Shown here one piece after another: positions 9,784 to 64,000 of a DNA stretch of 64,000 nt. Both the position numbers and the translations under genes were made by a program. Origin of the DNA: Miniimonas arenae (GTDB lineage: Bacteria; Actinomycetota; Actinomycetes; Actinomycetales; Beutenbergiaceae); the NCBI RefSeq assembly GCF_006351005.1, contig NZ_VENP01000007.1, positions 1-64,000 on the forward strand. The letters run 5' to 3'. Under the pieces are notes generated by a model that saw only the letters and a list, made by a program, of their open reading frames with translations, searched no databases and was not told the DNA's origin. Every line of letters begins with the position of its first letter. Position 1 is the stretch's first letter.

Positions 9784-10980
9784 CTACGGGGTCGGCGCGC
9801 CGTCCTCGCCGGGCGCGGGCGGCGTGCTCGGGCCAGGCCGGGCGTCCGGCGCCCCGGGCACCCCGGCGCGACCGAGCGCAGCCGTGGCCTGCGCCTCGGT
9901 GCAGCCCGCCACCCGGAGCAGGTCGAACGTGATCGAGCGCAGCAGCGTGAGCACGACGTGCCGGCCCGGGTCGCGCTCCCCGCGCGTGTCCAGCCGCACC
10001 GCGACGGCCTCGAGGTCCTCCCGCGGCGCGATCGGCTCGCGTCCCTCCCCGAGGGCCACGCCGAGCCGGCGCGCGGCCAGCCCGACCTCCTCGACGAGGC
10101 CGGCGAGGCAGGGGTCGCGCACGCCCTCGCGCACCGAGACGCCCGCGCGCCGCGCGAGCACGCGCGAGGTGCGCACGGCGCGGTCGGTGAACTCGCTCGC
10201 GGCGTCGAGGACGACGAGCTCGTGGGCGTGGCGCCGCCACGCGGGCGAGATCCTCGCCGTCGAGCCCGAGGCGGTGACCGCCTCGGCCCACGCGACGAGC
10301 AGACCCTGCGTCGCCCGGCCGCGGCGGAGCGACTCCGCGGCGGCCACGGTGTCGCCCTGCGCGAGCGCGCGCCCCACGAGCGCCAGGACGTCGCCGAGCT
10401 CGGCGAGCACGGTCCGCGCGAGCATCCGGGGTCGGCGGCGCGGATCCTTCGGCACGAAGAGCGAGAACACGAGCGCCACGAGGCCGCCGAGCAGGGCGTC
10501 GGTCCACCGGCCGACGGGACCCCCGCTCGACGCGGCCGCCGGCAGTCCGAGCACGACGATCGCCTGCACGGCGGACTGGGTCGTCACCACGGGCGAGGGG
10601 TCGATCGCGCGGCCGATCAGCGCGGCGAGGAACACCACCACCGTCGTCTGCACGGGCCCGGAGCCGAACTCGTGCTGGATGAGCTCGCCCATCGCGACGC
10701 CGAGCGACACCCCGAACGCCAGCTCGCCCACTCGACGCGGCTGCACGTCCGGGGAGAAGCCGAGCGCCGAGAACGCCGCGACCGAGGCGAAGAACGGGTA
10801 GGGGTGGCCGAGCAGCGCGCCGGCGACGGCGTACGCCACCCCCGCTGCGAGGCTCGCCCACGCGACGGGCTGGGCAGCCACACGCACCCGCCCGAGCCCG
10901 GCCCGCACGCGCGGACGCCCGAGCACCGGCGTCACGAGGGCGGACCAGGGCCGCCGCCCGGGTGGGGGCGGCGTGCTCAC
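9784..10980 (-). CDS. FUSC-like aromatic acid exporter family membrane protein
   Basis: A 398-residue protein with about six N-terminal membrane segments (residues 35-175, e.g. PVAWASLAAGVAYAVAGALL and SALGFSPDV) followed by a cytoplasmic helical domain. This is the layout of half-size FUSC/ArAE permeases. The GTG start (VSTPPPPGRRPW) overlaps the YgfZ stop by 4 bp (GTGA), indicating translational coupling. The substrate is unknown. The tail is Pro/Gly/Asp rich and probably disordered. Confidence 0.75.
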   Translation of the reverse strand: MSTPPPPGRRPWSALVTPVLGRPRVRAGLGRVRVAAQPVAWASLAAGVAYAVAGALLGHPYPFFASVAAFSALGFSPDVQPRRVGELAFGVSLGVAMGELIQHEFGSGPVQTTVVVFLAALIGRAIDPSPVVTTQSAVQAIVVLGLPAAASSGGPVGRWTDALLGGLVALVFSLFVPKDPRRRPRMLARTVLAELGDVLALVGRALAQGDTVAAAESLRRGRATQGLLVAWAEAVTASGSTARISPAWRRHAHELVVLDAASEFTDRAVRTSRVLARRAGVSVREGVRDPCLAGLVEEVGLAARRLGVALGEGREPIAPREDLEAVAVRLDTRGERDPGRHVVLTLLRSITFDLLRVAGCTEAQATAALGRAGVPGAPDARPGPSTPPAPGEDGAPTP

Positions 10981-37030: not shown

Positions 37031-39139
37031 TCACCCCGCGTCTGCGGCGCCGACAGCAGCGCCGCGGTAGGCGACCCCGACGAGCCCGGCGAGCGCGCCG
37101 TCGCGCACGAGGACGGGCGTGCGCTCGAGGGGAGCGTCGAGGTCGACCCAGGCTCCGCCGTCGTGCACCTCGCCCGTGGCGAGGTCCGTCCACGTGGCTC
37201 CGGCCGGCAGGTACGCCCGGCGACGGCGAGCTCCGGCCTCGAGGACGGGCGCCACGAGGACGTCACAGCCGAAGAGGAACTGGTCGCCGATGCGCCAGGC
37301 CTCGGCGTCGTCGGGGAACCCGTGGAAGAGTCCGCGCATCACCGGCTGACCGTCCTCGTGCGCGGCGCGCATGGCCTCGCGCGTGTAGTCGCGCAGCGCC
37401 TCACGCAGGTGCACGTGCCGTGCGAGCACCTCGTAGACCGCCTCGCCGTAGCTCCACAGCTCGTTGCCGGCGCCGGAGTGGCAGCGCGCCGAGCCGTCGG
37501 CGGCCGTCACGCCGCGCTGCGGCGACCGGTCCCCGTGCAGCCGCATCACCGGCATGAACGTCGCCATCTGGAACCAGCGCACCAGGAGCTCGTGGAAGGC
37601 GGGGTCGTCGACGTGACCGCCGTAGAAGCCGCCGATGTCCGTGGTGAACCACGGGATCCCTGCGGCGCCCATGTGGATCCCGGCCGTGACCTGGCGCCGC
37701 ATCGACTCGAACGAGGAGTGGATGTCGCCGGACCAGACGAGCGCGCCGTAGCGCTGGGAGCCGGCCCACGCGCAGCGCACGAGGTTGACCGGGCCGGACG
37801 CGTCACGAGCGGCACCGCCCGCCTGCCGGTCCGCGACCTGGCCCTCCGCCACCGCGCGCGAGAACAGCTGCGGGTAGACGTTGCCGACCTGGATCGCCGG
37901 GCCGGCGTGGTAGCGGTAGGCCTCGTACTCGTAGAAGACGAACTCGGGCTCGGCCTCGTCCAGCCAGAACAGCGACACCCCCGGGTAGTTCCGCCGCAGC
38001 GTCTCCCAGAGCCACGCCCGCGCACCGGGGTGGGTGACGTCGAGGAACCGCGAGGGCCCCTGGAAGGACATCTGCGCGTCCACGCCGCGGTCGGACCGCA
38101 CGAGGTACCCGCGTCGCGCGAGCTCCGCGTAGTTCTCCGACTCGTAGGAGACCTGCGGCCAGACGGACACCATGAGCGCGACGCCGAGCTCGGCCAGCTC
38201 GGCGACCATCGCCGCGGGATCGGGCCAGAACTCCTCCTCCCACCGGTAGTCGCCCATGTGCGGCCAGTGGAAGAAGTCCGCCACGATGACGTCGAGCGGC
38301 AGGCCCCGCCCGGTGTGCTCGCGGGCCACCTCGAGCAGCTCGGCCTGCGTGGTGTAGCGCAGCTTGCACTGCCAGAAGCCCAGCCCGAGCTCGGGCATCA
38401 TCGGGGCGTGACCGGTCGCGTCCGCGTACGCGCGCGCGATGTCCGACGGCGTGTCCCCCACCGTGAGCCAGTAGTCCACCTGGTCGGTGAGCTCGGCGAC
38501 CCACTCGGTGCGGTTGCTCGCGAACGTGGCACGACCGACGGCGGGGTTGTGCCAGAGGAAGCCGTAGCCGGCGCTCGAGACCACGAACGGCACGCTCGCC
38601 TGGGAGTTGCGGTGCGCGAGCTCGAGGGTCGAGCCCTTGAGGTCCAGCAGGTCCTGCTGGTACTGACCCATCCCGACCAGGCGCTCCTCGCGCGGTCCGA
38701 CCAGCGACACCGTGAGACGGTGCCCGGCGCCGCGCGGGTCGTACTGGCGCGCGCGGCGCTTGAGTGCGCCGCCCTCGTGCTCCTCCTCGAGCACGAGCCG
38801 GTCCCCGCGGTAGAACGCGAGGTGGCAGCTCGAGCGCAGGTACCCCGCCTGACCGTCCATCCCCTGTCGCGCGGTCAGGACGACCCGGAGGTCGCCCTGC
38901 ACGAGCGTCCCGACGGCGCCGTCCGCGGTCTCCGTGACGGTGAGCTTCGGGCCGGCGTCGCCGCCCACGTCGGTGATCGCGGGGTCGGGCGGCAGGAGCG
39001 CCCAGTCGTGGTCGCGCAGCTCCCCGCTCAGGGTCGCCCGCACGCGGACGGCGCTCCGGCCCCAGGACTCGACCCGGACGGTCTCGCCGTCGCCGGTCCA
39101 CTCGAGGGCGGGTCCGGACACCTGGACGTGGCTGCTCAC
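37031..39139 (-). CDS. GH31 alpha-glycosidase, probable alpha-xylosidase
   Basis: A 702-residue cytoplasmic GH31 enzyme. Nucleophile D394 is in FWLDEAEPEF and acid/base D472 in WSGDIHSSFE. The N-terminal beta-sandwich carries VGMGQYQQDLLDLKG and the long WLD-E-EPE loop, as in alpha-xylosidases and related enzymes; alpha-glucosidase or alpha-galactosidase activity cannot be excluded. GTG start with GGAGGAG. Last gene of the first transporter operon, preceded by C/A-rich decamer repeats. Confidence 0.88.
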   Translation of the reverse strand: MSSHVQVSGPALEWTGDGETVRVESWGRSAVRVRATLSGELRDHDWALLPPDPAITDVGGDAGPKLTVTETADGAVGTLVQGDLRVVLTARQGMDGQAGYLRSSCHLAFYRGDRLVLEEEHEGGALKRRARQYDPRGAGHRLTVSLVGPREERLVGMGQYQQDLLDLKGSTLELAHRNSQASVPFVVSSAGYGFLWHNPAVGRATFASNRTEWVAELTDQVDYWLTVGDTPSDIARAYADATGHAPMMPELGLGFWQCKLRYTTQAELLEVAREHTGRGLPLDVIVADFFHWPHMGDYRWEEEFWPDPAAMVAELAELGVALMVSVWPQVSYESENYAELARRGYLVRSDRGVDAQMSFQGPSRFLDVTHPGARAWLWETLRRNYPGVSLFWLDEAEPEFVFYEYEAYRYHAGPAIQVGNVYPQLFSRAVAEGQVADRQAGGAARDASGPVNLVRCAWAGSQRYGALVWSGDIHSSFESMRRQVTAGIHMGAAGIPWFTTDIGGFYGGHVDDPAFHELLVRWFQMATFMPVMRLHGDRSPQRGVTAADGSARCHSGAGNELWSYGEAVYEVLARHVHLREALRDYTREAMRAAHEDGQPVMRGLFHGFPDDAEAWRIGDQFLFGCDVLVAPVLEAGARRRRAYLPAGATWTDLATGEVHDGGAWVDLDAPLERTPVLVRDGALAGLVGVAYRGAAVGAADAG

Positions 39140-39180
39140 GCGTGCTCCTCCTGCTTGCGACGGCGACGGCGACGTCGCGG

Positions 39181-39220
39181 TTCGTCGTGGTTCGTTGTGG
39201 TTGGTCGTGGTTCGTTGTCC
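39181..39220 (-). repeat. Four decamer repeats in the GH31 leader
   Basis: The 10-mer TTCGTYGTGG or close variants is repeated head-to-tail at 39181, 39191, 39201 and 39211 (last copy degenerate). Read in the direction of the GH31 mRNA it is C/A rich and poor in G. It lies 42-81 bases upstream of the GH31 start, in the gap after the YesL gene. Confidence 0.75.
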
Positions 39221-39255
39221 GTGCGGGTCGTGGTGCTGGGTGGGGTGGTGCTCGG

Positions 39256-39954
39256 TCAGCGCGAGGGCGCGAGCGCCGGCGTCGGGGCGCCGTCGGACGC
39301 GGCCGTGGGCTCGCCGTCGGACGTGTCGGCGGGCCGCGGCAGGATCCCGCTGCGCCACACCAGGGCGGTGGTCACCCAGGCGGGTGCCATGATCCCGAGC
39401 ACGACCGCGAGGCCGGGAACGACGTAGTAGAGGCAGGCCGTCGCCGCCAGCACAGCGGCTCCGCCGAGCGAGATCAGCGGGCGCGCGACGACGAGCACGG
39501 CGGCCCGCCGCAGCACGCGCAGCGGCCCCTCGGCGAAGTGCGCCTGAAGCACCCACACCGTCGCGGACATGCACATCAGCACGAGTGTGACGACCCAGAG
39601 CAGCACCTGCAGCGCGCCCGCGCCGGCCACCTCGGTCGTGCCCAGCAGGCGGTGGTCCAGAAGGACGAACGCCCATCCCGCCACGAGCGGGAGTCCGACG
39701 GCGTTGGCCGGGACGAGCTCACGGCGCCATGCCCGGTGGAACTCGCGCGGCAGTCGCTCGCGCTCGGCGGTGCCCGGCCAGCCCTCTCCCGCCATATGGT
39801 CGCGCCTGAGCACCGCGTGCACGGCGGCCGTGGCGGGGGCGATCCCCAGCACGACGGCGCCGAGCAGCGTGTGCGCGACCCACAGCAGCTGCAGCCACAG
39901 CAGGCGGCGACCCAGGTCGGCGATCCGCACGTGCCAGTCCAGGACGTTCCTCAT
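39256..39954 (-). CDS. DUF624 (YesL-like) membrane protein
   Basis: A 232-residue protein with four to five membrane helices and the DUF624 pattern (LLWLQLLWVAHTLLGAVVLGIAPATAAVHAVLRR). B. subtilis YesL lies in the rhamnogalacturonan operon beside a similar transporter; its precise function is unknown. The start overlaps the preceding permease stop by 4 bp. Confidence 0.87.
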   Translation of the reverse strand: MRNVLDWHVRIADLGRRLLWLQLLWVAHTLLGAVVLGIAPATAAVHAVLRRDHMAGEGWPGTAERERLPREFHRAWRRELVPANAVGLPLVAGWAFVLLDHRLLGTTEVAGAGALQVLLWVVTLVLMCMSATVWVLQAHFAEGPLRVLRRAAVLVVARPLISLGGAAVLAATACLYYVVPGLAVVLGIMAPAWVTTALVWRSGILPRPADTSDGEPTAASDGAPTPALAPSR

Positions 39955-47904: not shown

Positions 47905-49221
47905 ATGGCGACGACGCCCACCCCCACGCCCCCGATGGGCTGGAACAGCTGGGACTCCTACGGCACCACCGTCACCGAGGCCGAGGTGCTCGCCAACGCC
48001 CGCTTCATGGCCGAGCACCTCCTGCCCCACGGCTGGGACACGGTGGTCGTGGACATCGACTGGTCCGACCCCACCGCGCGCTCCCACGGGTACAACGCCG
48101 ACGCGCCGCTCGCGATGGACGCCTGGGGTCGCCTTCAGCCCGACGTCGCTCGGTTCCCGAGCTCGGTCGACGGCGCCGGCTTCGGCCCGCTGGCCGACGC
48201 GGTGCACGCGCTCGGACTGCGCTTCGGCATCCACACGATGCGCGGCATCCCGCGCCGCGCGGTCGCGCAGGCCACGCCGATCCTCGGCACCGCTGGCACC
48301 GCAGCCGACGTCGCGGACGCCACCAACGTGTGCGAGTGGAACCCCGACATGCTCGGCCTGAACCACGACCACCCCGCCGCGCAGGCGTACTACGACTCCA
48401 CGCTCGCGCTCTACGCCTCCTGGGGCGTGGACTTCATCAAGTGCGACGACATGCTCTGGCCCTACCAGGCGCGCGACATCGAGGCCTACGCGCTCGCGAT
48501 CGAGCGCTCGGGCAGGACGATCGAGCTCAGCCTCTCCCCCGGGCGTGACCTCTCGCTCACCCGGCTGGACCACCTGCGCGAGCACGCCACGATGTGGCGG
48601 ATCTGCGACGACCTGTGGGACCGGTGGGAGGACGTCGAGGCCAACTTCGCCCGGTTCGCGCGCTGGGCGCCGCACGCCGGCTCCCACGGCTGGCCCGACG
48701 GCGACATGCTCCCCCTCGGCCGCATCGGCCTGCGGGCCGAGCGCGGCGAGCCGCGCGACAGCCTCCTCACGCCGGCCGAGCGCCGCACCCTCATGACGCT
48801 GTGGTGCGTAGCGCGCTCGCCCCTCATGGTGGGCGGAGACCTGCCCACGTCCTCCCCGGAGACGATCGCCCTGCTCACCAACCCCGGCGTGCTCGCCCTC
48901 CTGCGCACGACGGCGTCGCGCGAGGTCTTCCGCGAACCTCCCCTCGTGCTGTGGTCGGCACAGGGGCACGACGGCGCCGCGTACGTCGCGGCCTTCAACA
49001 CCGGCGAGGCGCCGCTCGCCGTCGCGCTCGACGCCGGCAACGTCGACCTGCCCGTGACCCTGGAAGGAGAGGTGCGCGAGCTCTGGAGCGACGCCGTCGT
49101 GCCCCGCACCGCGGTGACCGAGCAGAGCGACGCGGCGCGCGGGGTCGCCCCGGGCAGCGTGGCGCTGCAGGTCCACATCGCGCCGCACGACGTCGTGCTG
49201 CTGCGACACACCGCAGGGTGA
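47905..49221 (+). CDS. GH27 alpha-galactosidase or beta-L-arabinopyranosidase
   Basis: A 438-residue GH27 enzyme, complete: PPMGWNSWDSYG at the N-terminus, nucleophile D181 in DFIKCDDM and acid/base D235 in WRICDDLWDRW. C-terminal beta-sandwich included. There is no signal peptide. GH27 contains both alpha-galactosidases and beta-L-arabinopyranosidases; the context of arabinose enzymes makes the latter plausible (inference). ATG with GAGGGAG eight bases upstream. Confidence 0.92.
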   Translation: MATTPTPTPPMGWNSWDSYGTTVTEAEVLANARFMAEHLLPHGWDTVVVDIDWSDPTARSHGYNADAPLAMDAWGRLQPDVARFPSSVDGAGFGPLADAVHALGLRFGIHTMRGIPRRAVAQATPILGTAGTAADVADATNVCEWNPDMLGLNHDHPAAQAYYDSTLALYASWGVDFIKCDDMLWPYQARDIEAYALAIERSGRTIELSLSPGRDLSLTRLDHLREHATMWRICDDLWDRWEDVEANFARFARWAPHAGSHGWPDGDMLPLGRIGLRAERGEPRDSLLTPAERRTLMTLWCVARSPLMVGGDLPTSSPETIALLTNPGVLALLRTTASREVFREPPLVLWSAQGHDGAAYVAAFNTGEAPLAVALDAGNVDLPVTLEGEVRELWSDAVVPRTAVTEQSDAARGVAPGSVALQVHIAPHDVVLLRHTAG

Positions 49222-49320: not shown

Positions 49321-50907
49321 ATGCTCGCGCTGCAGCTCCTCGCCCACCTCCTGCCGGCCCTGACGGCCGGACTGCTGTGGGTGCTCGCGCGGCGCGGCTC
49401 CGACGCGGGTGCCACCCTTGGACCGACGGGGGTCACGCCGTCGTCGTCGGGGCCTGGGGCCGCGGGCCGGGTCGCGCATCTCGCGCCGCTCGCGCTGGTG
49501 CCGGTCGCGGTCCTCGACGTGCTCGGGGCGAGCGAACCGGCCGCGTGGGGCGTGGGCCGGCTCGACGTCGTGAGCCGTCCGCTGCTGCTCGTCACGGTGA
49601 CGCTCTACGCCGGGGCGCTCGTGCTCTCCGCCCGGTCCGGGTCGGCCGCGGCGTCGCGGCTGACCAGCAGGCTGCTCGTGTGCTTCACCGGGAACGCCCT
49701 CGTCCTGTCCGCCGTCGACGTGGCGACGTTCGCCGTCGGCTGCGCGATCGTGACGTCGATGGTCTACGCGATGATCCTCGGACAGGAGTCACCGCTCGCG
49801 CGCAGGGCCGCGCGGACCTACCTCGCGTTCGGCCTCGTCGGCGACGCGTTCGTGCTCGCGGCGCTCGTGCTCGTGGTCGCCGCGGGCGGGTGGCGGGTGG
49901 CCGACGCCCCGGCGGCCGTCGCGGCGTCGCCCCTCGCGCCGCTCATCGTGGCGCTGCTGCTGCTGGGGTTCGGCGAGTGGGCGTGCACGTTCCCGCTGCA
50001 CGGCTGGCTGCCGCTCGTGGAGTCCGGCGTCTCGATCCCGGTCGGCGCGGTGCTGAGCGGCTGCGTCATCAAGATCGGCCTCGTCGGGTGGCTGCGGTTC
50101 CTGCCGCTCGGCGAGGCCGCGCTGCCGGTGTGGGGCGGTGGCCTCGTCGTGCTCGCGCTGCTGGGTGCCGGTGTCGCGCTGCTGCCCGGCGTGCGCAGCA
50201 ACGACCCGGACGCGTCCCTCGCGTTCAGCTCGGTCTCCCAGATGGGCTTCCTCGGCGTCATCGTGGGCGTCGCGCTGAGTGCGCCGGAGCTCGCGACGGC
50301 GTGCGTGCTGTCCGCCGTCGTGTACGCGGTGCACCACGGCATGGCGAAGGGCGGGCTCATCCTCACGGTCGCCGTGTGGGCGCGCTACGGCGGCGGACCC
50401 CAGCGGCGCTGGGTCGTGGCGGGTGGCGTGGTGCTCGCGCTCGCCGTCGCCGGGGCGCCGCTCGGCAGCGGCGCCGTGGCGAAGTACGCCGCCAAGAGCG
50501 CCGTGGCTGCGGCGCCGTTCCTGCTCGACGTCACCGCGCTGCTCCCCTTCGTCGCGACCGCCACCACGCTGATCCTCGCGCGTGCGGCGTTCACGCTGCG
50601 CAGCCACATCGCGCCGGCCAGGCAACGCGCCGACGGGTGGTTCGTGGCGTGGGCGGCGCTCGTGCTCGGCGGCACCGCGGCCACCTGGTACCTCGCCGGG
50701 CAGTGGGTCCCGATCGTCTCGGTCCCGAGGCTCGACGCCGTCACGGTGGCCGCTGCCTCCTGGCCCGTGCTGCTCGGGCTCGCGATCGCGGCGCTGGTCT
50801 GGTACGCGTCCCGGCGGGGCTGGCTGCCGAGCTGGGCGACCGACCGAGGCCTGCCCCGCGGGGCGCTCGAGGTGGTGCTCGACGAGGGCGGCCGCCCGCG
50901 GCACTGA
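49321..50907 (+). CDS. Lone NuoL/M/N- or MrpD-like proton-translocating membrane subunit
   Basis: A 528-residue protein with about 14 membrane helices and the proton-conducting transporter core: TFPLHGWLPLVES, LSGCVIKIGLVGWLRF with the half-channel Lys, FSSVSQMGFLGVI and YAVHHGMAKGGLI. Such subunits normally belong to complex I, Mrp antiporters or group 4 hydrogenases, yet no partner gene is nearby. ATG start 99 bp after GH27. It may be an orphan antiporter-like protein or part of a membrane complex encoded elsewhere. Confidence 0.82.
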   Translation: MLALQLLAHLLPALTAGLLWVLARRGSDAGATLGPTGVTPSSSGPGAAGRVAHLAPLALVPVAVLDVLGASEPAAWGVGRLDVVSRPLLLVTVTLYAGALVLSARSGSAAASRLTSRLLVCFTGNALVLSAVDVATFAVGCAIVTSMVYAMILGQESPLARRAARTYLAFGLVGDAFVLAALVLVVAAGGWRVADAPAAVAASPLAPLIVALLLLGFGEWACTFPLHGWLPLVESGVSIPVGAVLSGCVIKIGLVGWLRFLPLGEAALPVWGGGLVVLALLGAGVALLPGVRSNDPDASLAFSSVSQMGFLGVIVGVALSAPELATACVLSAVVYAVHHGMAKGGLILTVAVWARYGGGPQRRWVVAGGVVLALAVAGAPLGSGAVAKYAAKSAVAAAPFLLDVTALLPFVATATTLILARAAFTLRSHIAPARQRADGWFVAWAALVLGGTAATWYLAGQWVPIVSVPRLDAVTVAAASWPVLLGLAIAALVWYASRRGWLPSWATDRGLPRGALEVVLDEGGRPRH

Positions 50908-59570: not shown

Positions 59571-60611
59571 TCACATCGCCGGCACGCGGCGTCCGACGAC
59601 GCGCAGGCCCGTGGGCGTCGCGACGACGTCGTGCACCTCCGCTCGCACCCGCGGGGTGTTCATGCCGCGGTGCAGGACGAGCACGAGCTCGCCGTCGTGC
59701 GTGGTCAGGAGCATCCCGTGACCCGCGTTCCCCGCCACGAGGACCTCGCCCTGCTGCCACGGCCCGAGGAGCGAGCCGGACGGTGAGATCGCCTGCGTCT
59801 CGACGTACTCGCCGGTCACGACGTCGCTCCCCGGCCGGTAGGACGCCCAGAGCATCGCGAGCGCACCACCCGGCAGCCGGTACGGCTGCGGGCCGTCGGT
59901 GACGTAGGGCGCGAGGGCCTGCGTCGAAGGGGTGATCGCGGTGAACCACGGCGCCTCGGACGCCCGGAAGAGGTGCACCGGCGCTCCGGCGACGGCGAGC
60001 TCCTCCGTCAGCGGTACCGCCTCCATCGTCCCGTCGAGCACCTGCACCCACTCGTGCGCGTACACGAGCCACGGCGCGCCGTGCTCGTCCCGCACGAGCG
60101 TGCCGTCCAGCGCCATGAAGTCCCCCGGGGTGTGGGGCGCCGAGGGGTCCAGGAGCTCGAACGGCCCGCGGGGGTCGTCGGCGACGGCGAGCACCGTGCC
60201 TCGGCGGATCGGCCGCAGCGTGTGCTCCCCCGCCGCACCGATCAGGTCCACGACCGTCCCGCGCTGACGCGTCGGGGGCAGCGGGTCCTGCGGCGCGTGC
60301 AGCGTCGTCGCGAGCACGAAGCGGTCGCCCCACGCGTGCACCTCGGGTGCCCACGGCGCCGCGTCCGGGCTCGCCCAGGCGCCGTCCGGCACCGTGAACA
60401 CCACCTCCGGCGACCCCCACGTGCGCAGGTCGGGACTCCACCAGGCCAGCACGCCGGTGCCGACCGGTGCGGCGTAGTCGCTGCCGTCGGGGATGTGGTG
60501 CGCCCACCGCCGGGAGTCGAACGAGGTGTACAGGAGGTACCCGTCCTCGACGGCGAGGACGTACGGGTCGTGGCAGGGCACCTCGTCGAGGGCGTGGGGA
60601 TGCGCGCGCAT
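59571..60611 (-). CDS. GH43-like glycosidase
   Basis: A 346-residue cytoplasmic five-bladed propeller of the GH43/GH62/GH117 clan type. Candidate catalytic residues are the Asp in CHDPYVLAVEDGYLLYTS and the Asp in MALDGTLVRDEHG; the Glu in WVQVLDGTMEAV is a plausible acid. This pattern matches GH43 members without close characterised relatives known to me, so the substrate is uncertain; arabinose or galactose oligomers are likely from context. It lies upstream of the transporter operon on the same strand. Confidence 0.85.
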   Translation of the reverse strand: MRAHPHALDEVPCHDPYVLAVEDGYLLYTSFDSRRWAHHIPDGSDYAAPVGTGVLAWWSPDLRTWGSPEVVFTVPDGAWASPDAAPWAPEVHAWGDRFVLATTLHAPQDPLPPTRQRGTVVDLIGAAGEHTLRPIRRGTVLAVADDPRGPFELLDPSAPHTPGDFMALDGTLVRDEHGAPWLVYAHEWVQVLDGTMEAVPLTEELAVAGAPVHLFRASEAPWFTAITPSTQALAPYVTDGPQPYRLPGGALAMLWASYRPGSDVVTGEYVETQAISPSGSLLGPWQQGEVLVAGNAGHGMLLTTHDGELVLVLHRGMNTPRVRAEVHDVVATPTGLRVVGRRVPAM

Positions 60612-60699
60612 CGCGCCAGCGTAGGAGCGCGCACCGCGTCAGCCCGGCATGACGGCGCGCCATGGCCCCCTCCCGCGCCCGAACGGGACTGAAGTCCCA

Positions 60700-60712: not shown

Positions 60713-60838
60713 GCATCCGGGACGCCTGCCGCGTTGCCCTCGCGCGAGCGCGTCGGCCCCGACCGTGGGAGCACCCGCCCGACCGAGCGGCCGTCGCACC
60801 GGCGACCGACTCGGCACCGCACCCCCGAGGAGCCCGCC

Positions 60839-61954
60839 ATGACCACTGACACGACCACGCTCGTCCCGCCGGCCGAGTCCACCACTCCCACCCCCGCTCC
60901 CACCCCGACCCCGTCCCCGCAGCGCCGCCGGTTCGAGGCCACGCTCACGGGCGGCACGCCCGACCGCGTCCCCGTCACCGCGTGGCAGCACCACATCCCC
61001 GCGGAGTCCGACGTCGAGGCCCTCGCCGACCGGGTGGCCGCCGACACCGCGCGCTTCGGCTGGGACTGGATCAAGATCAACCCGCGCGCGACCTACCTGC
61101 CCGAGGCGTTCGGCAACACCTACGACCTCGCCCGCTACACCGGCGTCCTCCCGGCGCGCACCCGCACCCTCGTGCGCACCCCCGCCGACCTCGACCTCGT
61201 GACCGACGCCGCCGACGCAGCGGTGCTCGCCGACCACGTGCGCCTCGTCGCGCTGCTGCGCGAACGCGTCGGCGACCTCCCGCTCCTGCCCACCGTGTTC
61301 TCGCCGCTGTCGGTGCTGCTCGAGCTGACCGGCACGCCGTCGTACGTCTCGGCGCTCCAGCCGGGCGACGCCCGGCCCACCGAGGTGCTCGCCGGCCTCC
61401 TCGCCGAGCGCCCGACGGCGGTCCACGCCGCCCTGCGCGCGATCACCGACACCCTGGTCACCTATCTCGGGCGCACGCGCGAGGCCGGCGCGGACGGGGT
61501 GTTCTTCGCCGTGACGGGGACGGCCCACCGCGACGTCGCGTCGCCGCAGCAGTTCTCCGAGCTGTCCACGCCGTACGACGACGAGGTGCTCGCCTCGGTC
61601 CAGGGCTGGCGCGTGGTGCACACGTGCGGCCCGTGGGCGCACCCGGAGTGGCTGGACCGTCCCGGCGTGCACGCCGTGCACTGGGACCAGACGGCGCCGG
61701 GCAACCCGACGCTCGCCGAGGCCGGCCGCACGCTGCGCGCGACCGGCGTCGGCGGCGTCGCGCACCTCGCGGCGGGCGACGGCGAGGTCGCCACCGTCCG
61801 CGACCAGGCCCGCGCCGCGCTCGAGGGTGCGGGGCGCGCGTTCCTGCTCGCGCCGTCGTGCTCCGTCCCGCCGAGCGTGCCGGACGCCGTCTACGCGGCG
61901 CTGCGCGACGCCGTCGGGCACGAGGAGGGCGCCGAAGCCGCCGAGACGCGCTGA
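60839..61954 (+). CDS. Uroporphyrinogen decarboxylase (URO-D) superfamily protein
   Basis: A 371-residue protein of the URO-D barrel superfamily: FEATLTGGTPDRVPVTAWQHH near the N-terminus, DWIKINPRATYL, GADGVFFAVTG, and HTCGPWAHPEWL. The heme-pathway HemE arginine-rich pattern is absent, so it is not HemE. The superfamily also includes corrinoid-dependent methyltransferases (MtaA/MtbA/CmuA) and uncharacterised proteins found in sugar clusters. His/Cys in HTCG could bind metal. A ~30-residue Pro/Thr-rich N-terminus is unusual. ATG with GAGGAG. Confidence 0.8.
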   Translation: MTTDTTTLVPPAESTTPTPAPTPTPSPQRRRFEATLTGGTPDRVPVTAWQHHIPAESDVEALADRVAADTARFGWDWIKINPRATYLPEAFGNTYDLARYTGVLPARTRTLVRTPADLDLVTDAADAAVLADHVRLVALLRERVGDLPLLPTVFSPLSVLLELTGTPSYVSALQPGDARPTEVLAGLLAERPTAVHAALRAITDTLVTYLGRTREAGADGVFFAVTGTAHRDVASPQQFSELSTPYDDEVLASVQGWRVVHTCGPWAHPEWLDRPGVHAVHWDQTAPGNPTLAEAGRTLRATGVGGVAHLAAGDGEVATVRDQARAALEGAGRAFLLAPSCSVPPSVPDAVYAALRDAVGHEEGAEAAETR

Positions 61955-62036: not shown

Positions 62037-64000
62037 TCAGTCGACGGCCTCCGCGCTGTAGAGCAGCACGTGGTCGGGATTGACGCGTGCGTCGACGAGT
62101 CCCGTGTGCACGAGCACCGAGCCCGGCAGCTCGACCCCGAGGTGCTCCCCCACCTGCCGCAGCCGGGGCGCGTGCCCCTCGTGCAGGTCGGCGAGGTAGG
62201 CGGAGTGGTCGCGCTCGACACCCCACCACTGCGGCGGGAGCAGGCCCGACGGCGCGCTCCCCACCAGGACGGGCGCCACCCGGTAGCGCCGGTCCGGGTC
62301 GAGCCCCGGGAACCGGAGCCGGCCCAGCAGCGCCGTCTCGTGCGTCGCGACCGAGGCGAAGGAGTAGATCGCTCGGGAGCGGTCCGGGCTCACGACGCCC
62401 GACGCCGTGAGCGAGGCGTTCGGGAAGTCGACGCGGACGAGGTCGCCGCGCAGCAGGAGGCCGCGCTCACGCTTGTAGAACGCGATCCACTCGGCGAGCT
62501 CGGCGCGCTCGCGCTCGCTCGCCCGGCGCAGGTCCCACTCGATGCCGAGGTGGCCGAACAGGGCGGTCGCGGCGCGGAAGTCGAGGTCGTGGGACCGGCC
62601 CGTGGTGTGCGAGACGCCCGAGGCGATGTGCGAGCCGAGCAGCTCCGGCGGGAGCAGCTGACCGCTCCAGCGCAGCATCTGCTGCCGCTCGAGCGGGTCG
62701 ATGCAGTCCGACACCCACACGCGGTCGGTCCGCTCGAGGATGCCGAGGTCCACGCGCGCACCACCCGAGGCGCACGCCTCGATCTCCAGCCCCGGGTGGG
62801 CGGCCCGGATCTCGTCCATCAGCCGGTAGACCGCGAGGGTCTGCGCGTGCACGCCCGGCCGGCCCGCGGGTCCGCTGCCGGCGTCGACGAGGTCGCGGTT
62901 GTGGTCCCACTTGATGTAGTCGATCCGGTACTCCGCGAGCATCGCCACGATCGCGTCGCGGATGTAGGCGTAGGCGTCGGGGTTGCCGAGGTCGAGCACC
63001 TGCTGGTGGCGCGAGGGCACCGGCATCCGGCCGCCGGTCGCGAGCACCCAGTCCGGGTGCGCGCGGGCGACGTCGGAGTCGAGGTTCACCATCTCGGGCT
63101 CGAACCACAGGCCGAACTGCATGCCGAGGTCCTTCACCCGGTCGACGAGCGGGTGCAGCCCGTCCGGCCACACGTCGGCCGACACGGTCCAGTCGCCGAG
63201 GCCGGAGTAGTCGTCGCGCCGGGAGCCGAACCAGCCGTCGTCGAGCACGAACCGCTCGACGCCGAGCGACGCCGCGATCTCGGCGAGCTCGAGCAGCGGC
63301 GGCAGGCGGTGGTCGAAGTAGACCGCCTCCCACACGTTGATCGTGACCGGTCGCTCGACGTCGGGGTGCTGCGGGCGCGACCGGAGGTAGCGGTGGAAGC
63401 GGTGCGCCACGCCGTCGAGCCCCTCGCCGTAGGAGCCGTAGAGCCACGGCGAGGAGTAGTGCTCGCCCGGGGCGAGGACGACCTCGCCGGGGAGCAGGAG
63501 CTCGCCGCCGCCCAGCACCTGCTCGCCGGTGGACAGCCGCTCCGCGAGGTGGGTGTGGTTGCCGCTCCAGGCGATGTGCACGCCCCAGACCTCCCCGGAG
63601 CCGAACGAGAACGACGGCGTGCCGGCGTGCAGCACGGTGGCCGCGTCCGCGCCGGTGCGGCCGCGGCGACCCTCGCGCAGGTGCGTGCCGACCGTGAGGG
63701 CGCGCCGCTGCGGCGAGCGCTCGCGACCCCACTGACCCGCGAGGTCGAGCAGCTCGCGCGCGACCGGCGGCACCGGGTAGGCCAGCACGAGGTCGTCGAG
63801 CTGGTACGCGTCGGCACCGGTGTTGCGCAGCAGCGCGCGGGTACGCAGCAGACCGCCCGGCGTCAGGCCGATCCGCAGCTCGAGCGCGAGACCCGCGACG
63901 TCGTCGACGGCGAGCACGGTCGCCTCCGCGGTCCCGCGCTCCAGGAGCACGGGAGTCTCGCCGTTGGCGTCCTGGTCCACGCCGTCGATCACCAGCGCGG
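62037..64000 (-). CDS. GH36 alpha-galactosidase (5' end beyond window)
   Basis: At least 650 C-terminal residues of a GH36 enzyme are present. The nucleophile Asp is in YIKWDHNRDL and the acid/base Asp in VSDCIDPLERQQ; FVLDDGWFGSRRDD, GLWFEPEMVN and CASGGARVDLGILERTD are all typical. Complete members have about 700-730 residues, so some 60-80 N-terminal residues lie beyond position 64000; the apparent GTG near 63992 is internal. It should remove terminal alpha-galactose from imported oligosaccharides. Confidence 0.95.
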   Translation of the reverse strand, partial: ALVIDGVDQDANGETPVLLERGTAEATVLAVDDVAGLALELRIGLTPGGLLRTRALLRNTGADAYQLDDLVLAYPVPPVARELLDLAGQWGRERSPQRRALTVGTHLREGRRGRTGADAATVLHAGTPSFSFGSGEVWGVHIAWSGNHTHLAERLSTGEQVLGGGELLLPGEVVLAPGEHYSSPWLYGSYGEGLDGVAHRFHRYLRSRPQHPDVERPVTINVWEAVYFDHRLPPLLELAEIAASLGVERFVLDDGWFGSRRDDYSGLGDWTVSADVWPDGLHPLVDRVKDLGMQFGLWFEPEMVNLDSDVARAHPDWVLATGGRMPVPSRHQQVLDLGNPDAYAYIRDAIVAMLAEYRIDYIKWDHNRDLVDAGSGPAGRPGVHAQTLAVYRLMDEIRAAHPGLEIEACASGGARVDLGILERTDRVWVSDCIDPLERQQMLRWSGQLLPPELLGSHIASGVSHTTGRSHDLDFRAATALFGHLGIEWDLRRASERERAELAEWIAFYKRERGLLLRGDLVRVDFPNASLTASGVVSPDRSRAIYSFASVATHETALLGRLRFPGLDPDRRYRVAPVLVGSAPSGLLPPQWWGVERDHSAYLADLHEGHAPRLRQVGEHLGVELPGSVLVHTGLVDARVNPDHVLLYSAEAVD

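Follow-up and report, generated by a model that had tools for sequence, protein, structure and literature searches.

The window, by which we mean the whole 64,000-nucleotide stretch of Miniimonas arenae DNA analyzed here, carries a URO-D-superfamily gene at positions 60839–61954 on the plus strand. It is a stand-alone gene with a product of 371 aa, as defined by the ORF, a Pfam match, alignments and an AlphaFold2 (AF2) model. The reading frame is intact and has a GC3 of 0.976. Judging by its sequence, GAGGAG at 60827–60832 (+), 6 nt before the ATG at 60839, is the likely ribosome-binding site. An alternative in-frame ATG at 60662 would yield a 430-residue form. The start at 60839 is preferred, since most relatives first match around residue 28 as counted from this start. 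Comparison with the copy at locus L004 gave a dN/dS (NG86) of 0.32/0.54, a value that we set aside because dS is unreliable at such extreme GC3.

Both flanking genes encode glycosidases and lie on the minus strand. The GH43 gene (59571–60611, −; Pfam Glyco_hydro_43, 78.4 bits) is divergent from the URO-D gene and shares its 227-bp upstream intergenic region, and the GH36 (melibiase) gene (62037–63998 and past the window end, −; Pfam Melibiase, 397.8 bits) is convergent with it. Since both are on the opposite strand, the URO-D gene lies outside any operon of theirs, and neither is part of the function that we propose. The neighbors belong to a glycoside-use region (35480–63998) with GH31 (37031–39676, −), melibiase_2 (47905–49221, +), GH35, GH43 and GH36 genes, three LacI regulators, a ROK regulator, a DUF3502 solute-binding-type protein, permeases and DUF624. 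A gene for a Proton_antipo_M (NADH dehydrogenase/Mrp-type) membrane protein (49321–50907, +) sits in the middle of these glycosidases. The sole NCBIfam match of the window GH36 protein was beta-L-arabinopyranosidase, far under the cut-off. No riboswitch reached the gathering threshold between positions 50000 and 64000.

The URO-D family (PF01208) was the only Pfam match of the protein, at 88.7 bits against a cut-off of 23.9, and Meth_synt_2 (PF01717) was not found at E 0.001. A score above the gathering cut-off, together with a barrel fold, places the protein in the URO-D superfamily. It is not HemE: the NCBIfam hemE equivalog model scored 17 bits against a cut-off of 302.95, and the genome has a separate HemE-type gene on another contig, its second URO-D match (366 bits). 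In an 87-row alignment, the segment RQAGRSLPEYRELR is present in the row of this HemE and is a gap in all other rows. Curated MtaA/CmuA/CoM methyltransferase models also stayed far under their cut-offs (TIGR01463, 40.1 vs 235.4 bits; NF040654, 37.5 vs 400; NF004889, 54.7 vs 244).

A profile built from 52 relatives matched MtaA from M. mazei (4ay7) with an E-value of 1.5e-28, compared with 5.2e-12 for the best HemE. The AF2 model of the window protein had a mean pLDDT of 93.7 and a pTM of 0.90. Foldseek searches with this model ranked MtaA first (E 9.6e-16, TMq 0.74) and HemE next, with ApcE and MetE lower. The VIA Z scores were 33.7 for MtaA, about 32 for HemE, about 21 for MetE and 20.6 for ApcE, and the alignments with the MtaA and HemE chains extended across 312–320 residues. 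MtaA and HemE are thus nearly tied by predicted fold, and the profile score and the residues are what separate them.

In the profile alignment, the region around H261-x-C263 falls on LHICG of MtaA and the region around C341 on APGCGI. These His-x-Cys and Cys positions are the zinc ligands of MtaA. The corresponding codons in the window are 61619–61627 (+) for H261-T262-C263, which begin the motif HTCG, and 61859–61861 (+) for C341, which aligns with the C-terminal Cys of MtaA. Clade conservation and the alignment with MtaA suggest that H261 and C263 are zinc ligands and that C341 is the third. All three residues were present in 54 of 54 clade copies, including the one in the window. H261 was also invariant across a broader set of 52 aligned rows, in which C263 and C341 were conserved in at least 90%. 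In the 87-row alignment, apart from the HemE row, the triad was incomplete only outside the clade: C263 is absent from L108, L111, L115 and L116, C341 is absent as well from L116, and H261 is absent from L100. In L108, L111, L115 and L116, which are Chloroflexota relatives, H or E replaces C263. Metal use may differ in these branches because the second residue of the triad is absent. A sequence-only reading of this DNA had described the protein as a barrel of the MtaA type distinct from HemE, with a possible metal-binding HTCG. The first two points were borne out by the profile, the predicted structure and the hemE results, and the third gains support in that HTCG begins a conserved triad of a putative metal-binding type.

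The triad bears on which kind of methyl transfer is plausible. According to PMC10418091, a preprint, S-methyltransferases of the UroD superfamily have a His-Cys-Cys set that is tied to S- or Se-methyl transfer, and in O-methyltransferases of the superfamily carboxylates or non-coordinating residues take the place of one Cys or of both. The zinc ligands of MtaA agree with this His-Cys-Cys set. No replacement of a Cys ligand was seen in the clade, as C263 and C341 are retained in all 54 copies. By the distinction drawn in PMC10418091, this suggests that the window protein transfers methyl (alkyl) groups at S rather than at O. PMC539065 describes thiol alkylation at zinc by MetE, MetH, MtaA and BHMT, and states that MetE needs no intermediate carrier.

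We searched for relatives in one genome per species across 84,980 species, which returned 199 relatives, of which the best 80 loci were kept. In a quick tree with SH-aLRT support only, in which the pairs L005/L069, L006/L054 and L008/L093 are each the same sequence twice, the window copy formed a group (SH-aLRT 100) with 12 Actinomycetota and Bacillota rows. This clade was apart from Chloroflexota, Dormiibacterota, Eiseniibacteriota, Zixiibacteriota and other rows. At E up to 1e-60, the family to which Paenibacillus oryzae (L044) belongs has clade members in 65 of 394 genomes, and the family that includes Bacillus canaveralius (L038) has them in 12 of 193.

Gene neighborhoods were compared by tblastn with one query protein per gene, counting the best match per locus; some of the stretches end at contig ends. 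Across 62 clade loci other than the window, a MetQ-type binding protein was found at 51, a ProC-like reductase at 52 and a Glyoxalase_3 protein at 52. Fifty-two of these loci were searched within 7 kb and had ProC-like (43), Glyoxalase_3 (43), MetQ (42), the C-terminal part of MetN (38), MetI (38), M20 (38) and GntR (33) genes. A Cys/Met PLP enzyme (13), an Opp-type binding protein (3), LivK (2) and HyuB (2) were rarer. The 10 further loci, from Bacillaceae and searched over whole stretches of 9.8–12.5 kb, contained MetQ (9), ProC-like (9), Glyoxalase_3 (9), MetN (8), MetI (8), GntR (6), Cys/Met PLP (2) and M20 (1). One of the Bacillaceae loci, L214, had no partner among those searched. The typical gene order is GntR, an optional Cys/Met PLP enzyme, M20, MetN, MetI, URO-D, MetQ, ProC-like and Glyoxalase_3. 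Paenibacillaceae dominate the sample, with 40 of the 66 places of that family's clade matches used, and the loci are therefore not independent. The best independent repeat of the operon context is Bifidobacterium subtile, where ProC-like (48%) and Glyoxalase_3 (38%) genes lie beside a clade copy.

The genes at one such locus, L150, were assigned by Pfam and NCBIfam to FCD/GntR, Cys_Met_Meta_PP, Peptidase_M20, an ABC protein with a NIL domain, URO-D, an NlpA lipoprotein, ProC and Glyoxalase_3. The M20 amidohydrolase and ProC models scored above their cut-offs. The MetN-type (397.4 vs 499.7) and MetQ/NlpA-type (96.8 vs 228.85) proteins fell under the curated methionine-transport cut-offs, and methionine gamma-lyase, the best NCBIfam model for Cys_Met_Meta_PP, was also under its cut-off. 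The imported nutrient thus need not be methionine.

A SAM riboswitch (RF00162) was located directly upstream of the URO-D-family gene at 2 of the 35 clade loci scanned, both from one family. These are L038 (9799–9908, +, with the gene start at 9986) and L212 (6765–6870, −, with the gene match running from 6685 down). No MetI or MetN C-terminal homolog was found upstream of the gene at either locus, so that the operon there apparently starts with the URO-D gene. The other 33 scanned loci had no SAM riboswitch by the gene. Among them were L181, L184, L186 and L187, where MetNI is likewise not upstream on the strand of the gene, and we conclude that the riboswitch link is real in two genomes and not general. 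Outside the clade, 18 of 69 relatives have one homologous gene group directly downstream of the URO-D gene (for example L060, 10984–11424). The member of this group tested by Pfam belongs to the glyoxalase family, echoing the Glyoxalase_3 of the Bacillota operon.

Most sampled Bacillota relatives are linked to MetQ and MetNI. The window gene and the relative nearest to it (L004/L032) are not, and tblastn found none of the operon partners beside either. The L032 gene has a Dyp peroxidase, a copper chaperone and a thioredoxin-like gene as neighbors. MetQ, M20 and Glyoxalase_3 homologs do occur elsewhere in the window's genome and in the related genome G009. These homologs are only 25–29% identical to the operon versions and are syntenic between the two genomes, so we rejected them as unlinked orthologs of the Bacillota operon and take them to be ordinary genes. 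A MetI homolog elsewhere in the window and related genomes is 45% identical to the operon version. Because the partners are absent beside the gene and the homologs elsewhere are so divergent, the role of the protein in Miniimonas arenae is less certain than its chemistry.

A related explanation is that the window copy was acquired laterally and the pathway lost, leaving an inherited activity with no defined role in this host. The distribution of the gene in the host family is patchy (2 of 24 genomes), no common neighbors were seen between the two loci, and the window copy sits on a long branch to the rest of the clade in the quick tree. However, the two family copies, which are 60% identical, both have intact frames, and the window copy keeps the majority residue at all 24 tabulated positions, although these were chosen as conserved. 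We consider this explanation unlikely.

A few clade members are found in other surroundings, described here from Pfam searches of one representative of most groups. Branched-chain-type ABC genes are near the URO-D gene in L037 and L048. In L042, L044 and L045, Opp-type ABC, M20, amidohydrolase and HyuA genes follow a PucR regulator, and L041 and L188 have HyuA, HyuB and a Pot-type ABC context. L043 has MmgE/PrpD, mandelate-racemase-type and RidA genes, and L046 has serine-dehydratase-alpha and M20 genes. These contexts suggest amino acids or amides, rather than glycans, as the nutrients. The hydantoinase- and serine-dehydratase-type contexts, along with the partnerless L214, indicate that substrates may differ across the clade.

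HyuA and HyuB adjoin the URO-D gene in L041 (397–4468) and L188, which could reflect a carboxylase or hydantoinase partnership. This leads to a different view of the zinc site, in which it would serve a lyase, carboxylation or decarboxylation reaction with hydantoinase/carboxylase-type partners. The epsilon subunit of acetophenone carboxylase, ApcE (9fou), has a similar fold (Foldseek E 2.1e-6, VIA Z 20.6), but MtaA and HemE are much closer matches. HyuB was within 7 kb at 2 of 52 loci, against 42–43 for MetQ, ProC-like and Glyoxalase_3. A lyase or carboxylase role is, in our judgment, quite improbable.

The proposal of an S-methyl(alkyl)transferase raises the question of a corrinoid partner. 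The window's genome (3.40 Mb) had no match to the B12-binding families PF02310 and PF02607, for which controls matched in 12 and 9 of 14 genomes, and by these two domains shows no corrinoid partner of the kind with which soluble CoM methyltransferases work. A corrinoid gene could have been missed, since the assembly consists of 148 contigs, although its completeness is given as 99.73%. None of the eight annotated neighbors in the window is a corrinoid-protein or activase gene, in agreement with the sequence-only reading, which had seen no corrinoid protein beside the gene. None was seen among the annotated neighbors of clade members either. PMC10418091 describes type 1 mlp clusters of anaerobes, in which several Mlps are encoded together with a corrinoid protein and a Ram/RACE activase. 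No cluster of this kind, with a corrinoid protein, Ram/RACE and at least two Mlps, was seen among the eight annotated window neighbors or in the annotated clade neighborhoods.

Other clade-member genomes were scanned for PF02607 only, and 11 of 12 had a match. In seven of these 11, all matches were in open frames of at least 819 aa, which we read as MetH. The other four had an extra match in a shorter frame (213–564 aa). The genome of Bifidobacterium subtile (G459), with two clade copies, had no PF02607 match. Given this and the lack of B12-domain matches in the window's genome, a corrinoid is probably not obligatory for the clade. The protein might instead be a thiol methyltransferase that uses methylcobalamin, drawing on free, scavenged cobalamin in place of a dedicated corrinoid protein. 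This would fit the closest solved structure, MtaA, a methylcobalamin:CoM methyltransferase, as well as the frequent PF02607 matches and the shorter frames just described. The window's genome, which matches neither B12-binding family and has MetE, and the two-copy Bifidobacterium subtile genome argue against it, and we give scavenged cobalamin only a small chance.

The sequence-only reading had proposed, from the position of the gene between GH43 and GH36, that the enzyme acts on O-methylated plant sugars. The position is as described; the gene is opposite in strand to both neighbors and not part of their operon. The sugars in question would be O-methyl galactose, O-methyl glucuronate or a related sugar released by GH43, GH36 or GH35. 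The region also has GH35, GH31 and melibiase_2, sugar ABC parts, and ROK and LacI regulators, and the shared upstream region makes joint control with GH43 possible. Several kb from its URO-D gene, L032 has a Sugar-bind regulator and ABC permeases, and in L152, one of the 52 loci, a weak homolog (22%) of the sugar-binding protein in the window is encoded 5.9 kb away. The same reading had named loss of sugar context in relatives as evidence against its proposal, and this loss is largely what we found. Within 7 kb of the gene, tblastn found no homolog of the GH43, GH36 or GH35 enzymes in the window at any of the 52 non-window clade loci, and this included the nearest relative, L032, which is 60% identical. 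Among the 10 further Bacillaceae loci, only L213 had a GH36 homolog (34%), which was 5.8 kb away. Judged by these three enzymes, there is no conserved glycosidase linkage of the kind expected of a glycan cluster. With the gene opposite in strand to its neighbors, absent from 22 of 24 family genomes and unlinked to glycosidases in relatives, with His-Cys-Cys rather than the set reported for O-methyltransferases, and with no PF02310 or PF02607 match in the genome, sugar O-demethylation is rejected as the leading view and has a very slim chance of being correct. Glycosidase neighbors on the opposite strand are a poor guide to function.

We place about even confidence in the reading that the window protein is an S-methyl(alkyl)transferase of the URO-D/MtaA superfamily that depends on zinc and not on a corrinoid. 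H261, C263 and C341 would bind Zn2+ in the barrel. A small thiol or thioether would bind to this Zn2+ through its sulfur and be activated there, and the enzyme would pass a methyl or alkyl group between the activated sulfur and a second small molecule, such as a sulfonium, a methylpterin, or another thiol or thioether, without a corrinoid protein. The clade gene probably acts on sulfur compounds, moving methyl groups, rather than on sugars. In many Bacillota, it would do so within an apparent uptake-and-salvage operon for a sulfur-amino-acid-like nutrient. This operon would combine a GntR regulator or SAM riboswitch, an optional methionine-gamma-lyase-like enzyme, M20, MetN-MetI, the URO-D protein, MetQ, the ProC-like reductase and Glyoxalase_3. 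In Miniimonas arenae, the lone copy beside the glycosidases probably carries out the same chemistry on a sulfur metabolite that may come from other loci.

On our best reading, what is new is the operon context of a zinc S-methyl(alkyl)transferase. Searches of the open-licence PMC literature turned up neither a MetNIQ/ProC/Glyoxalase_3 operon with a URO-D gene nor a URO-D gene with a sugar role. More tentatively, direct methyl or alkyl transfer between sulfur metabolites by an MtaA-type zinc barrel, with no corrinoid at all, could be the core of an undescribed sulfur-amino-acid salvage operon that is frequent in Paenibacillaceae and has spread to actinobacteria, among them the host of the copy beside glycosidases; we regard this as possible rather than probable. 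If zinc S-alkyl transfer is correct, it gives a function to a conserved Paenibacillaceae operon. Since the clade genes match the uroporphyrinogen-decarboxylase family, they may be annotated as such by default, hiding a probable enzyme of sulfur metabolism.

The known systems differ from this reading in distinct ways. HemE shares the fold and Pfam family PF01208 with the window protein, but carries the segment noted above, which is missing from the protein and its relatives. MtaA (4ay7), the best profile and structure match, shares the barrel fold and the His-x-Cys...Cys positions, which are common to MtaA, CmuA and other soluble CoM methyltransferases. However, the two proteins are only about 22% identical, the curated family cut-offs are far from reached, and MtaA uses CoM, whereas no finding on the window protein indicates CoM use. 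The Mlp proteins, as described in PMC10418091, belong to the UroD superfamily and have in common with the clade the His-Cys-Cys set and a sulfur/methionine gene context. The corrinoid O-demethylases/haloalkane demethylases MtvB, OdmB, VdmB and CdmB are members of the same superfamily, but work with corrinoid proteins, unlike the window protein as we read it. The ligand set for O-substrates in UroD-superfamily O-demethylases also differs from its His-Cys-Cys (PMC10418091), and CdmB shows no zinc according to PMC13222342. In the portions of PMC10418091, PMC539065, PMC13222342, PMC5214803 and PMC3766115 that we draw on, the methyl-transferring UroD-superfamily members work with corrinoids. MetE, in turn, is related in fold (VIA Z about 21) and is a zinc barrel in which a thiol is alkylated with no corrinoid. 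It is a double barrel with Glu as the fourth ligand (PMC539065), and the window protein has no PF01717 match. A methionine synthase role for the window protein is unlikely, since the genome already has a MetE match in an 830-aa frame. If the window protein is indeed a zinc-only member of its superfamily, it would connect the chemistry of the MetE type with that of the MtaA type in a simple and testable way.
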